Positions 17,006 through 23,920 of a DNA stretch of 32,007 nucleotides are shown one piece after another. This DNA comes from Fructobacillus durionis. Lineage in GTDB: Bacteria > Bacillota > Bacilli > Lactobacillales > Lactobacillaceae. The position numbers and the translations under genes were made by a program. Each line of letters starts with the position of its first letter. Positions within the stretch are counted from its first letter, which is position 1. Below the pieces are notes generated by a model. That model did not search any database and had not been told where the DNA came from. It saw only the letters and a list, made by a program, of their open reading frames with translations. Location of the stretch: the NCBI RefSeq assembly GCF_900112405.1, contig NZ_FOLI01000008.1:1-32007 (forward strand), in the 5' to 3' direction.

Positions 17006-17012
17006 AGAGATA

Positions 17013-17212
17013 TCATTTGTTGCAGAGCGAAGAAGCACTGGTAGTCAGAAAGCCAACGGTTGCTGTGAGTTGGTCTAACTTCTTCAGGTACACAACAAAA
17101 CACAATGACGTAAAATGCCGCGTTAAGGCAGTTTAAGTGACCTCGAAGAGGTAATTTAGGTGGTACCGCGGTTCAGTCGCCCTAATCAGAAGAGATTAGG
17201 GCGACTTTTTTA
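17013..17212 (+). ncRNA. Tyrosine T-box riboswitch
   Basis: This leader binds uncharged tRNA-Tyr and lets tyrS be transcribed when tyrosine is scarce. The specifier codon TAC (Tyr) lies at 17089-17091 in the Stem I region after GGTCTAACTTCTTCAGG. The T-box bulge AGGTGGTACCGCG occupies about 17158-17170. The terminator pairs GTCGCCCTAATC (17176-17187) with GATTAGGGCGAC (17194-17205), then seven T. The right aminoacyl-tRNA synthetase follows, confirming the specifier. Confidence 0.95.
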
Positions 17213-21003: not shown

Positions 21004-21759
21004 TTAGTGGACAAAGTAGTTGAGTAGATCGGCTTCTGTTAAGGCATCCTTTTCCTGATCTTTAACGTCTAGAACAATTTGTCCAGAGTTTAAGACAATC
21101 AGGCGGTTACCGTATCGAAGGGCATCCTTCAGGTTGTGCGTAATCATTAGAGCGGTTAGGTGATTATCCTTGACCTGGTGGTTTGTTGCCGCCATCAACT
21201 GATCCGACGTCTTTGGATCCAGTGCGGCTGTGTGCTCGTCTAAGAGCAGCAAGCCTGGCTTGACCTGTGTTGCCATTAGGAAGGAAAGGGCTTGGCGCTG
21301 CCCTCCTGAAAGGGAACCAGTCGCTGTCTGCAGTCGGTCTTCGAGGTTGTTCCCCATTGTCTTTGTTAATTCGTAGTAATGTTCAAGCTTTTCAGACGTG
21401 AGCTTACGGTTCTTCAAAGTCCGACGAGATCCACGCTTTTCAGCAAGCAGCAGGTTTTCGGCAACGGTCATACGGGGAGCGGTTCCAAGCTTGGGATCTT
21501 GAAAGACGCGAGCAAGAAAGGACGTCCGCTTGACAGCAGGTACTTGGGTAATGTCTTCGCCGTCATGACTAACAGAGCCAGAAGTAAGGGGAAGGTCACC
21601 GGAGATGACATTGAAGAGAGTCGACTTACCGGCCCCGTTGGTACCAAGAACGGTGATGAAATCCTCTGGGTAAATGTCCAAATTCATCTTATTCAAAATG
21701 GTCGTACCGTTTGGAACAGTAACGGTCGCATCTTTTAGTGAGATTACAGGTTTAGTCAT
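21004..21759 (-). CDS. trpZ: ABC importer ATP-binding protein (TrpZ-like)
   Basis: A 251-residue ATPase. Walker A is GTNGAGKST, the signature is LSGGQRQAL, Walker B is LLLLDEHTAALDP, and the switch His is in MITHNLKDALRYG. The frame reaches a TTG at 21792, but GGGAGG eight bases before the ATG at 21759 fixes the start. The start overlaps the end of the permease gene by eight bases, so they are coupled. With the two upstream genes it forms the TrpX/ABC_sub_bind type importer. The tryptophan assignment rests on the leader peptide of the operon. Confidence 0.87.
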   Translation of the reverse strand: MTKPVISLKDATVTVPNGTTILNKMNLDIYPEDFITVLGTNGAGKSTLFNVISGDLPLTSGSVSHDGEDITQVPAVKRTSFLARVFQDPKLGTAPRMTVAENLLLAEKRGSRRTLKNRKLTSEKLEHYYELTKTMGNNLEDRLQTATGSLSGGQRQALSFLMATQVKPGLLLLDEHTAALDPKTSDQLMAATNHQVKDNHLTALMITHNLKDALRYGNRLIVLNSGQIVLDVKDQEKDALTEADLLNYFVH

Positions 21760-22651
21760 TTGCTTTACCTCCCATGTGTAGGACTTTTTCAAGCTTCAAG
21801 AACTTACGAGCTTGAGGAATCATCATGGCGATGGCCAAAATGAGTGATGAAATTAAGTTCAAATCGTTTGTTGAGAATCCAAGCTGTAGAACCGCGAGGA
21901 GAACGAGTCGGTAGATGATTGAGCCAATGACGACAGCAACCAAACGTTGGTTTAGTGACAAATCACCGAAGGCTACTTCTCCAATGATGATGGAAGCCAA
22001 GGCGATAACGATGATACCGATACCCATGTTGATGTCAGCAAAACCGTTGTTTTGAGCAATAACAGCACCACCGAAGGCAATCAACGCGTTTGATACCATC
22101 AGACCCATAATGGTCATACGATCTGTCTTAATACCGAAGGCAGCGGCCATGACTTTGTTATCACCAGTGGCGATAAAAGCCTGACCGAGTTCGGTTTGTA
22201 GGAACCAGATGAGGAAACCCAGGATAATGGCAATGACAATTAACCCAAGGACAACGCCGTCAAAGTATTTTGGCAAATCATTTAAGAATGAAAGGGAGAA
22301 GATGGTTTTTTGATCTAACAGAGAAATGTTAGCTGAACCCATAATGCGTAAGTTGATTGATAGGCAGGCGGTCATAACCAGGATTCCAGCTAATAGGATT
22401 GGAATCTTACCCTTCGTGTAGAGCAAACCGGTGATGAGACCGGCTGCAGCCCCAACGATAAGGGAAGTAGCAGTGGCTAAGAAAGGGTTCACGCCGTGGG
22501 CAATCATGGCAACGGCCGTCGAAGCACCAAGGGGGAAGGAACCTTCAACCGTCATATCCGCAAAGTTCAAGATACGGAAGGTTAGGTAGAGAGCGACCCC
22601 TAGGATGGCCCAGAGAATGCCCTGTGAAATGGAAGAAACGATAATGGACAT
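21752..22651 (-). CDS. trpY: ABC importer permease (TrpY-like)
   Basis: A 299-residue protein with about eight to nine hydrophobic helices. It has the branched-chain-type permease fold used by TrpXYZ importers, with GVALYLTFRILNFADMTVEG at the start and a coupling region around GDNKVMAAAFGIKTDRM. It translocates the substrate delivered by the binding protein. Its ATG shares a base with the stop of the binding-protein gene (TAATG), and AAGGAGG lies just inside that gene. The C-terminus is basic (RKFLKLEKVLHMGGK). Confidence 0.87.
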   Translation of the reverse strand: MSIIVSSISQGILWAILGVALYLTFRILNFADMTVEGSFPLGASTAVAMIAHGVNPFLATATSLIVGAAAGLITGLLYTKGKIPILLAGILVMTACLSINLRIMGSANISLLDQKTIFSLSFLNDLPKYFDGVVLGLIVIAIILGFLIWFLQTELGQAFIATGDNKVMAAAFGIKTDRMTIMGLMVSNALIAFGGAVIAQNNGFADINMGIGIIVIALASIIIGEVAFGDLSLNQRLVAVVIGSIIYRLVLLAVLQLGFSTNDLNLISSLILAIAMMIPQARKFLKLEKVLHMGGKAND

Positions 22652-23649
22652 TAGTAGGCCTCCTTGCTAGCTTTAGCGTCTGAAACAATCTTTTCTGGTA
22701 GTGTAATACCAAGGTCTGAAGCGGTTTGAAGGTTAACAGCGTAATTTCCCTTTGAAACGGATTGAACGGCCATTGTTGAAGCCTTCTCGCCCTTTAGAAC
22801 CTTGGCAGCCATTTGACCAGCTTGGTAACCAACCTGGTACTGTGATTGTGAGTAAGTGACCAGTCCACCGTCAGCAACCATTGTGTCGTTCGATGGAATA
22901 ACTGGTACGTTCTTTGCCTTGGCAGCGGATACCAAAGTCTTCATGGCCGTCGCCACCGAGTTATCCTGTGGCGCGTAGATAGCATCGACTTTACCGGCCA
23001 TGGTTGTCGCAACCTGCAGCATATCATTAGTAGAAGAAATGGTATAAGACTTGACCGTGTAACCGGACTTTTGAAGTGTCTTCTTCATCTGCTTAGCGTT
23101 ATAAGTGCCACCTGAATCGGAAGTCGTTGAGATGATTCCGATTGTTTTGGCCTTTGGCAAAACTTCCTTAAAGACGGCAGCTTGCTTTTCATAAGGAGAA
23201 TCCCCGGCAACACCGGTGACGTTCTTACCTGGCTTATCAAGCGAGTTGACCAGTTTAGCACCAACTGGGTTGGTAATACCAGCTAAGACAACAGGGGACT
23301 TACCATTGGCAGCCTGTGCAAGTGAGAGGGCTGCTGGTGTGGCAATTCCGACGGTTAGGTCGGTATCCTTGTTGGCAAAATCCTGAGCCATGGTCTTTAA
23401 GTTGGCTTGGTTGGCTTGCGCGTTTTGATAAGAAATTTTGACGTTCTTACCATCCGTGTAGCCACCGTCCTTCAAACCAGCAACCACACCCTGATGAATT
23501 TGATCCAAAGCAGGGTGGGTAACTAACTGAAGAATTCCAACCGTTGGAATCTTGTGGTTTTTCTTCGTTGTTGATTGCCCTTCGGTGAAGAAGGCGACAA
23601 CAAGAAAGGCTAAAATCAGTGATGTAACCGTTAATAGACGTTTATTCAT
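22651..23649 (-). CDS. trpX: ABC importer substrate-binding protein (TrpX-like)
   Basis: A 332-residue extracytoplasmic binding protein of the ABC_sub_bind (PF04392) family. An N-terminal hydrophobic segment (about 5-22) serves as signal or anchor. The mature part shows TVGILQLVTHPALDQIHQGV, TPAALSLAQA, LAGITNPVGAKLV and IISTTSDSGG. No lipobox cysteine is present, so it is probably anchored by the uncleaved helix instead of by lipid. GGGAGAG precedes the ATG by four bases. The family imports aromatic amino acids, and the upstream leader peptide with two Trp codons points to tryptophan. Confidence 0.87.
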   Translation of the reverse strand: MNKRLLTVTSLILAFLVVAFFTEGQSTTKKNHKIPTVGILQLVTHPALDQIHQGVVAGLKDGGYTDGKNVKISYQNAQANQANLKTMAQDFANKDTDLTVGIATPAALSLAQAANGKSPVVLAGITNPVGAKLVNSLDKPGKNVTGVAGDSPYEKQAAVFKEVLPKAKTIGIISTTSDSGGTYNAKQMKKTLQKSGYTVKSYTISSTNDMLQVATTMAGKVDAIYAPQDNSVATAMKTLVSAAKAKNVPVIPSNDTMVADGGLVTYSQSQYQVGYQAGQMAAKVLKGEKASTMAVQSVSKGNYAVNLQTASDLGITLPEKIVSDAKASKEAY

Positions 23650-23694: not shown

Positions 23695-23738
23695 ATGAAA
23701 AAAGCCTGTTCGGGTAATGTGATGTACCCAAACAGACT
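23695..23738 (-). terminator. Attenuator terminator of the trpXYZ leader
   Basis: On the minus strand AGTCTGTTTGGGTA (23738-23725) pairs with TACCCGAACAGGCT (23716-23703) over 14 bp with two G-U pairs, followed by a T-run. It lies 72 bases after the leader-peptide stop and 54 bases before trpX. Confidence 0.92.
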
Positions 23739-23810
23739 TTTATACAGTAAAAAGAGACCGGTTGGGACAAACTGTGTCACAGCCTGTCCGTATTCCGTCA
23801 AGCTGTTTTC
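23739..23810 (-). ncRNA. Antiterminator region of the trpXYZ leader
   Basis: On the minus strand GGACAGGCT (23789-23781) can pair with AGTCTGTTT of the terminator's 5' arm (23738-23730) over 9 bp including G-U pairs. The same segment can instead pair with CACAGTTTGTCC (23776-23765) to its 3' side. A CCAACCGG segment just downstream can pair with CCGGTAGG at the leader-peptide stop, or its CCCAA with TTGGG of the terminator arm. The mutually exclusive pairings are seen; the switching order is inferred. Confidence 0.62.
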
Positions 23811-23858
23811 CTACCGGCGCCACCATTGGCGATTCAATTGTGATGAGAATGCAGTCAT
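23811..23858 (-). CDS. Trp leader peptide MTAFSSQLNRQWWRR
   Basis: A 15-codon frame with consecutive Trp codons (TGG TGG, 23825-23820) two codons before the end. AGGAG lies seven bases upstream of the ATG, a proper ribosome site. It sits inside the trpXYZ leader between the promoter and an intrinsic terminator. This is the design of a translated attenuator: ribosomes that pause at Trp codons change the RNA fold downstream. The peptide itself is not expected to have a function. Confidence 0.87.
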   Translation of the reverse strand: MTAFSSQLNRQWWRR

Positions 23859-23891
23859 TTGATTGCTCCTAAAGTATTAAAAGTTGTCTTA

Positions 23892-23920
23892 AGCATACAA
23901 GAGACTGTCTTGCCTGTCAA
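23892..23920 (-). promoter_or_regulatory. Promoter of trpXYZ
   Basis: On the minus strand a perfect -35 TTGACA (23920-23915), a 17-base spacer and a -10 TATGCT (23897-23892). Transcription would start near 23885 and give a leader of about 235 bases before trpX. Confidence 0.87.

Follow-up and report, generated by a model that had tools for sequence, protein, structure and literature searches.

The window, that is, the whole 32,007-nucleotide stretch of Fructobacillus durionis DNA analysed here, carries on its minus strand the genes of a TrpXYZ-type importer, preceded by a leader region whose parts are collected in Table 1. Among named records, the substrate-binding protein (SBP) of this importer is nearest to those of Fructobacillus sp. 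CRL 2054 (98% identity) and F. fructosus (90%). A promoter, an AGGAG, an open reading frame (ORF) with tandem TGG codons and a terminator before trpX had been proposed in an earlier, sequence-only reading of this DNA, and all of them are indeed found. The terminator itself is real, but not the 14 bp given for it: its arms, AAGTCTGTTTGGGTA and TACCCGAACAGGCTT, form 15 pairs including two G-U, and 17 pairs in the predicted fold. A simple terminator scan of the window leader misses it. When the leader is folded and compared with 200 dinucleotide shuffles, it reaches a z of -5.46, and no shuffle is equally stable. Sequence resembling the promoter is present in the Fructobacillus leaders of relatives; sites of this quality number 8 in the 6.5 kb scanned as against 9.1 in shuffles, so that the promoter site on its own is no proof.

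Table 1. Parts of the leader and the importer genes behind it, in window coordinates
Feature	Coordinates	Strand	Evidence
Promoter, -35 TTGACA (23920-23915) and -10 TATGCT (23897-23892), spacer 17	23892..23920	minus	10/12 matches
Shine-Dalgarno (SD) AGGAG of leader ORF	23866..23870	minus	
Leader ORF MTAFSSQLNRQWWRR, ATG 23858 to TAG 23811	23811..23858	minus	tail NRQWWRR kept in genus
Regulatory codons TGG TGG	23820..23825	minus	Trp in last ten codons at 30/30 RF04312 loci picked without using the ORF
Strand a (P1 5'), GCCGGT, within last codons	23813..23818	minus	counterpart covaries with P1' in relatives
Strand b, ACAGCTTG, partner 23786-23779	23799..23806	minus	folds
Strand c, GGACAGGCTGT, common to b:c and c:d	23779..23789	minus	folds
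Hairpin c:d (P3), P1 of the published trpB motif RF04312	23765..23789	minus	constrained fold; covariation in relatives; RF04312 alignments
Strand d, antiterminator strand TGTCCCAACCGGTCTCTTTT, partner 23741-23723	23750..23769	minus	folds
P1' ACCGGT, part of strand d	23762-23757	minus	
Intrinsic terminator stem, arm e 23739-23725 and arm f 23716-23702	23702..23739	minus	folds
Terminator T-run, six T	23698..23703	minus	
trpX, tryptophan ABC importer substrate-binding protein	22651..23649	minus	NF041285, 406.2 bits, cut-off 390
trpY-like permease (BPD_transp_2)	21752..22651	minus	
trpZ-like ATPase (ABC_tran)	21004..21792	minus	

The second TGG ends 13 nt ahead of strand b, which lies just beyond a ribosome at the Trp codons and is partly covered by a ribosome at the stop codon. 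A small hairpin is also seen around the Trp codons (23818-23831, CGCCA..TGGCG); it appears to be kept in relatives, with TTGGC-AAA-GCCGG as the Lactobacillus-type counterpart recognised by eye.

Conservation of the leader among relatives

A TrpX match is present in 54 of 60 related genomes, and 30 trpX loci of these relatives were read, 13 of them from the same genus. In all 13 the leader ORF, its frame and its tail NRQWWRR* are kept, so that the ORF is no product of chance, and in other genera the ends RQWWRQ* (L013) and AWWRR* (L015, L016) occur. Most other relatives carry one Trp in the corresponding position, for example LNNRWQSR*, and a single Trp codon is found in 77 of 152 filtered leaders, a set in which the enrichment of Trp is circular, as the leaders were picked by Trp, and was therefore left unused. 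Note that all such counts of leaders and of conservation are inflated by the relatedness of the loci. Two of the 30, L018 and L030, showed no leader at first; L018 later gave a match at 43.5 bits to the covariance model R1 described below, and MSGIQLNGRWQSR* lies further upstream in the same genome (L136), while at L030 neither a leader nor a T-box nor RF04312 was found. The Trp codons are not lost where the hairpin stays, be it in the genus or in 30 loci of the catalogued family RF04312 from seven families of the order, whose leaders all retain Trp codons at their end. The attenuator with Trp codons that had been proposed in front of a Trp importer is thus supported, both by this conservation and by the folds given below.

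Would the peptide, rather than its codons, be the sensor? In 115 leaders, the pattern [LVI]-N-x-x-W in front of the regulatory codons is common with synonymous change, L, V or I being written in many codons and Asn as AAT in 73 and AAC in 11 cases (the invariance of the first Trp is circular in this set and is not counted). Such conservation is not required by codon stalling alone and, together with the many leaders that have a single Trp, it would suit a TnaC-like arrest, in which tryptophan or the ribosome is sensed by the nascent peptide itself and the supply of codons counts for little. We consider this improbable. Namely, the Gln after the Trp is CAA in 92 of 92 leaders, under a search pattern that permitted CAG, and the Ser after that Gln is AGC in 77 of 77, a constraint that points to RNA; what is more, Trp is exchanged for Tyr/Phe in a sister class, and for an importer one expects induction when tryptophan is lacking, not when it is in excess.

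A second SD-led mini-ORF with Trp stands right before the trpX start in 17 of 176 distinct trpX upstreams. Fourteen of the 17 are of two recurrent types, ..[KRQ]RW.. and ..DW[ED]W.. (mini-ORF loci include L026, L116, L119, L120, L121, L131, L144 and L241, and also L223, L224, L228, L229, L230 and L233), and MKKRWRLIL or MKKRWRLSL precedes two trpX genes that have a T-box (L158, L166). These mini-ORFs are possibly an extra, translational layer of control.

Mutually exclusive helices

An alignment of 21 leaders that begins at the Trp codon and runs through P1' supports two helices, P1, in which the last codons pair with a downstream strand, and P3 (c:d). In this alignment 86.0% of the cells are paired, 15 of the 20 pairs changed on both sides, the covariation score was reached by none of 500 shuffles, and slid registers were 30-41% paired. 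With 92 distinct rows fitted to the model, pairing stands at 89.7% and double changes at 16 of 20 pairs; the covariation score was again reached in 0 of 500 shuffles, and the count of double changes in 10 of 500. Strands b and d compete for c, just as d and the 3' arm of the terminator compete for e; in other words, mutually exclusive helices are present near the end of the ORF, together with a terminator. The d:e pairing scores 11.30 with a leader's own terminator, 10.28 (sd 0.16) with terminators swapped among leaders and 9.72 with shuffled ones, so that the gain of own over swapped terminators is only modest; in the pairing and folding analyses the terminator, which was chosen automatically, is the wrong one for some rows, e.g. 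L017 and L029. One detail of the sequence-only reading did not hold. Namely, GGACAGGCT had been taken for a copy of the terminator arm, and as such it is not conserved: only 3 of the 13 genus leaders have it, the other 10 having GGACAAGCT. What is conserved is that this segment pairs with one of its two neighbours, the preceding or the following strand.

Folding with a ribosome in place

To mimic a ribosome on the window leader, a stretch of ribosome size was kept from pairing while the RNA up to the terminator loop was folded; this calculation describes equilibrium and not co-transcriptional folding. When the A site is placed at the first or the second TGG, b:c forms with 8 pairs, ACAGCTTG with CAGGCTGT, and d:e forms as TGT/ACA, CCCAA/TTGGG, CGG/CTG and CTTTT/AAAAG, the CCCAA at 23766-23762 pairing with the terminator-arm TTGGG at 23731-23727. 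With the A site at the stop codon, an 11-pair c:d hairpin (23789-23765) is obtained instead. The switch inferred earlier, from a ribosome at TGG to antitermination, is reproduced by this constrained fold. What had been absent from that earlier model is that, without a ribosome, the window leader up to the terminator loop is likewise predicted to be antiterminated, with b:c and d:e; when the whole terminator is included, P1 and b:c are predicted beside it. Expressed as a probability, the calculated hold of upstream RNA on arm e of the window leader is 0.78 for the ribosome at Trp, 0.75 for no ribosome and 0.39 for the ribosome at the stop codon.

Extending the same calculation to other leaders, 22 of 182 candidates were dropped before folding, as P1 or the terminator was not found in a strict search; among these are real elements (L023, L024, L175, L176, L178) as well as false ones in coding DNA. 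Of the remaining 160, 158 were folded, 150 of the Trp class and 8 of the Tyr/Phe class. Over the 158, the mean hold on arm e is 0.48 without a ribosome and 0.43 with one at the stop codon, and it peaks at 0.59-0.60 when the A site lies on the first regulatory codon or on one of the two that follow; masks placed six codons upstream and eight downstream, at 0.55 and 0.54, come close to this, and one placed three codons upstream gives 0.43, equal to the stop value. For the 150 Trp-class leaders the corresponding means are 0.58 at the first Trp, 0.43 at the stop codon and 0.48 without a ribosome, and of these leaders 84 have a value at Trp more than 0.05 above that at stop, 20 have a lower one and 46 show a tie. 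Sorted by codon arrangement, the 52 W-x-x-W leaders show a plateau of 0.68-0.73 over both Trp codons; the 77 with a single Trp reach 0.53-0.55 there and a higher value, 0.60, four codons upstream; and the 21 WW leaders have 0.50-0.55 at Trp and their maximum, 0.59, two codons past the stop.

The trpB motif as the probable downstream half of the element

RF04312, the trpB motif (SRC-39-1, 2024), was published as a strong riboswitch candidate with unknown ligand and more than 900 members in Firmicutes and Fusobacteria, its commonest target being an uncharacterised ABC transporter similar to amino-acid transporters; its authors placed an antiterminator in the right shoulder of its P1 and left a classic attenuator possible (PMC11109978, in part). 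Alignments with relatives identify its P1 with the c:d hairpin and its P2 with the terminator, and a P1 right shoulder that pairs with the terminator is a feature that the window element has as well, in strand d. The difference is that the RF04312 model starts after the stop codon of the leader and thus contains neither the ORF nor strands a and b, nor a ribosome. The window leader itself gives no RF04312 match even at E 10 (the gathering cut-off is 59 bits), and 18 more trpX-type loci likewise yield none at the gathering threshold. Relatives from other families are recognised by the model, and across Lactobacillales it matches 211 of 395 genomes, 59 of them over the cut-off.

We read 30 RF04312 loci above the cut-off (L170, L174-L202), picked without using the ORF. 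In every one of them a Trp-containing ORF led by an SD ends 9-27 nt upstream, with ATG as its start in 29 cases and GTG in L193; the same test at random anchors in these loci succeeds in 42 of 9732 cases, and the 30 loci are related and hence not independent. Downstream, trpX lies within 500 nt in 25, and trpB follows in three (L180, L187, L191). At L174 (= L071) a reverse-transcriptase-like ORF comes first and then a trpX-like gene; by eye, the ORF resembles a group II intron reverse transcriptase, and the trpX-like gene is in two frames. At L177 there is no gene behind the leader. In 19 further RF04312 loci, mostly below the cut-off and including one repeat, there are 17 Trp leaders, one Tyr/Phe leader and L219, a below-cut-off locus with W-Q-S-W in frame, no ATG, GTG or TTG start with an SD and, by eye, ATT as the only possible start. 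Hits lacking a leader were treated as chance, namely L171, L172 (at other places of the window's genome) and, like them at 38-42 bits, L173, and also L248, L253 and L257 at 32-42 bits.

Two loci deserve a separate description. At L177 (1330-1760, minus strand) the Trp leader and terminator are kept and a convergent ORF follows, aldehyde dehydrogenase-like by eye; at L213 they are likewise kept and no gene was found behind them. L180, the sister locus of L177, has trpB. The elements at L177 and L213 are candidates for relicts or stand-alone RNAs.

If the published description of RF04312 were taken at face value, the c:d hairpin and the terminator would sense an amino acid directly and the ORF would be incidental. 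In keeping with this, the family can be defined by its two hairpins without any ORF. That said, the Trp-codon ORF ahead of all 30 above-cut-off loci, the conserved P1 inside the end of that ORF, with strand b directly behind it, and the existence of a class that shares the layout but has Tyr/Phe codons in matching register and different targets argue against such a metabolite-binding riboswitch, and we regard it as extremely unlikely. Rather, the device is wider than Fructobacillus, its downstream half having already been catalogued as RF04312 with the leader unrecognised; RF04312 is probably the downstream half of a Trp-codon attenuator, and the leader would then explain the catalogued RNA.

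Distribution and targets

The model R1, a covariance model of P1 and P3 that spans the Trp codons to P1', matches 306 of 397 Lactobacillaceae genomes and 89 of 295 genomes drawn across the order, some of which are shared with the Lactobacillaceae set. Near the element, trpX was found at 47 of 50 and 64 of 66 loci read, which are best-scoring hits, second copies and hand-picked families and not a random sample. Elsewhere the element stands before an oligopeptide-type binding protein (L080 and L085, with PF00496 for L080, and L208, assigned from its N-terminus alone), which suggests peptide uptake as a source of tryptophan, or before trpB, where L209 joins the three loci named above (PF00291 for L180 and L187). 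L074 has the element without trpX. An R1 match of 25.1 bits at L122, beside an ORF of cell-division type by eye, is probably false. Among 14 trpX-type upstreams from genomes without an R1 match, RF04312 is found in seven, four of them over the cut-off, and a T-box in two f4 genomes; neither was found at L030, L156, L159, L163, L168 and L169, which are trpX-type upstreams too.

A sister class with Tyr/Phe codons

Where the Trp class has W-Q-S-W, a sister class usually has Y-F-S-Y-F. Weaker RF04312 hits in two-copy genomes have leaders such as QLNHFYFSYFRYCL* before a TrpX paralogue, and loci of Enterococcus and Streptococcus have MNSKLNHVNTFYFSYFR and MSQNCQLKTAKHSYYYSYFR, the latter without a standard SD. 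Those Enterococcus and Streptococcus loci match, below cut-off, the family RF02863 (Enterococcus sRNA 2410), which has matches in 157 of 295 order genomes, 71 of them over the cut-off. At all 30 RF02863 loci that we read, L285 included, there is an ORF preceded by an SD and terminating in a Tyr/Phe cluster, together with a matching P1; the same test at random anchors gives 0 of 9875, in a comparison where the RF02863 model includes the last codons. Among 34 distinct leaders selected for this Tyr/Phe pattern, 32 have Tyr and 2 have Phe opposite the first Trp codon of the other class, and all 34 have Tyr, as TAT or TAC, opposite the second; the pattern used for selection required AGC, so that the constancy of AGC among them is circular. 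Their P1 is mostly CTTTAGCTA with TGGCTAAAG or TGGCTAGAG. When 29 of the 34 are folded, the hold on arm e is greatest on the aromatic codons, 0.70-0.72, as against 0.54 at the stop codon and 0.50 without a ribosome. R1, whose input was confined to leaders of the Trp class, does not find this class, with one chance match in 40 loci.

The targets differ between the two classes. RF02863 precedes a TrpX paralogue in 23 of 30 loci, with the SBP within 400 nt, and an aroE-like ORF in 7; the aroE-like assignment was confirmed by Pfam in both cases tested, and the next ORF is a DAHP synthase in the one tested. Trp leaders are followed by TrpX proteins above the curated cut-off of 390, with 406-476 for four SBPs, and six SBPs behind Tyr/Phe leaders score 302-339 with the same model. 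In a tree of 51 SBP rows, a branch with 100/100 support separates the 39 of the Trp class from the rest, which comprises eight Tyr/Phe-class rows and four more, namely L036, two of L035 and the upstream neighbour in L245. The codons of the leader thus fit the targets, with Trp before trpX and trpB and Tyr/Phe before aroE.

The RNA after which RF02863 is named, sRNA_2410 of E. faecium, is 195 nt long and is known from RNA-seq, qPCR and a Northern blot with two transcripts (PMC5593968, in part); judging by name and length, RF02863 was presumably built from it. One could therefore argue that the element is a separate sRNA or a trans-acting leader, its distance to trpX being accidental, and the loci where no gene follows (L177, L213) or trpX is missing (L074) would agree with this. 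An importer gene nonetheless stands close behind most elements of both families, as counted above, and a terminated leader is just the product expected from an attenuator. We hold a separate sRNA to be very unlikely: sRNA_2410 would simply be the terminated leader of an attenuator, which its two transcripts fit.

How are the two classes related? The layout, the QLN...S register, the RF04312 scores and the paralogous targets point to common descent, which we infer from these sequence features and do not take as proved; the sub-threshold RF04312 scores of the Tyr/Phe class, 32-47 bits, overlap those of chance hits, which also reach 32-42. We favour, guardedly, the reading that RF04312 and RF02863 belong to a single attenuator family as its two branches; gene duplication would have carried this family through Lactobacillales, and an exchange of codons at two fixed positions (W-Q-S-W to Y-F-S-Y) would have re-aimed it from Trp to Tyr/Phe, with the RNA machine unchanged.

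Discussion

We put the probability that the window element is a ribosome-mediated transcription attenuator reading charged tRNA-Trp at roughly nine in ten. It would work as follows. RNA polymerase would transcribe a leader whose ORF ends in Trp codons, and this ORF would be translated. When Trp-tRNA is short, a ribosome would wait at TGG, cover strand a and leave strand b free; b:c would then pair, d would be released, d:e would form and transcription would enter trpXYZ. When Trp-tRNA is plentiful, the ribosome would reach the stop codon and cover part of b, upon which c:d and e:f would form and transcription would stop. In addition, the conserved P1, formed by a and the end of d, could keep d closed in the absence of a nearby ribosome. 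Translation, stalling, the order of folding, induction by lack of tryptophan and the sign and size of the response are, in this account, predictions drawn from the arrangement of codons and helices.

The mechanism is a variant of known attenuation. The trp attenuator of E. coli has tandem Trp codons in a short leader, a terminator and an antiterminator, and takes the position of the ribosome as its signal. The window element resembles it in its tandem Trp codons, in its terminator and antiterminator, and in the proposed use of ribosome position; no match of the window leader to any Trp-leader family was found in the Rfam scans. It differs in that it controls import, whereas the E. coli attenuator controls biosynthesis, and in that Lactobacillales leaders often have a single Trp codon. 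What is more, its chain of pairings (b:c, c:d, d:e, e:f) is one alternation longer, and consequently a stalled ribosome would permit the first hairpin rather than prevent it.

In S. suis the same trpXYZ operon, likewise induced by lack of tryptophan, is controlled by a T-box, which reads the tRNA through RNA contacts and without translation (PMC9382623, in part). Could the window leader be such a T-box too, with uncharged tRNA-Trp as its signal, like the one at trpX in streptococci? T-boxes do stand before trpX in the two f4 genomes (L158, L166), and in the window's own genome a T-box match (L292 3218-3484, 81 bits, cut-off 93) lies directly before a run of seven same-strand ORFs that includes TrpB- and TrpC-type genes. 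At the window leader, on the other hand, the Rfam scan is empty, with no RF00230 match even at E 10; this candidate was rejected, and we give it next to no credence. As for the attenuator, R1 has no match at the seven-ORF trp run, and one genome thus seems, as far as these matches go, to use both devices, a T-box before its trp operon and an attenuator on import. The earlier claim that two RNA strategies for aromatic amino acids coexist in the window itself holds as well, with the qualification that the tyrS T-box match (17011-17187) is sub-threshold, at 64.7 bits against an Rfam cut-off of 93 (E 4.7e-12).

Among openly licensed PubMed Central papers, we found none that describes the leader ORF, RF04312 or RF02863 as a translated attenuator, and the assignment of an attenuator to this orphan riboswitch candidate appears to be new within the literature searched. 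It offers a mechanism for RF04312 and for an RNA catalogued as an sRNA, and implies that a search for the ligand of the trpB motif may be misdirected. The same importer operon would be under a T-box in some Lactobacillales and under a translated attenuator in others. The element, being compact and re-codable, could serve as a test bed for how ribosome position acts on transcription termination in Gram-positive bacteria. Finally, leader codons provide a cheap and testable forecast of the cargo of TrpX-family importers, and if the reading of RF04312 and RF02863 as two branches of one family is true, they would predict the substrates of TrpX-like importers that are as yet unassigned.
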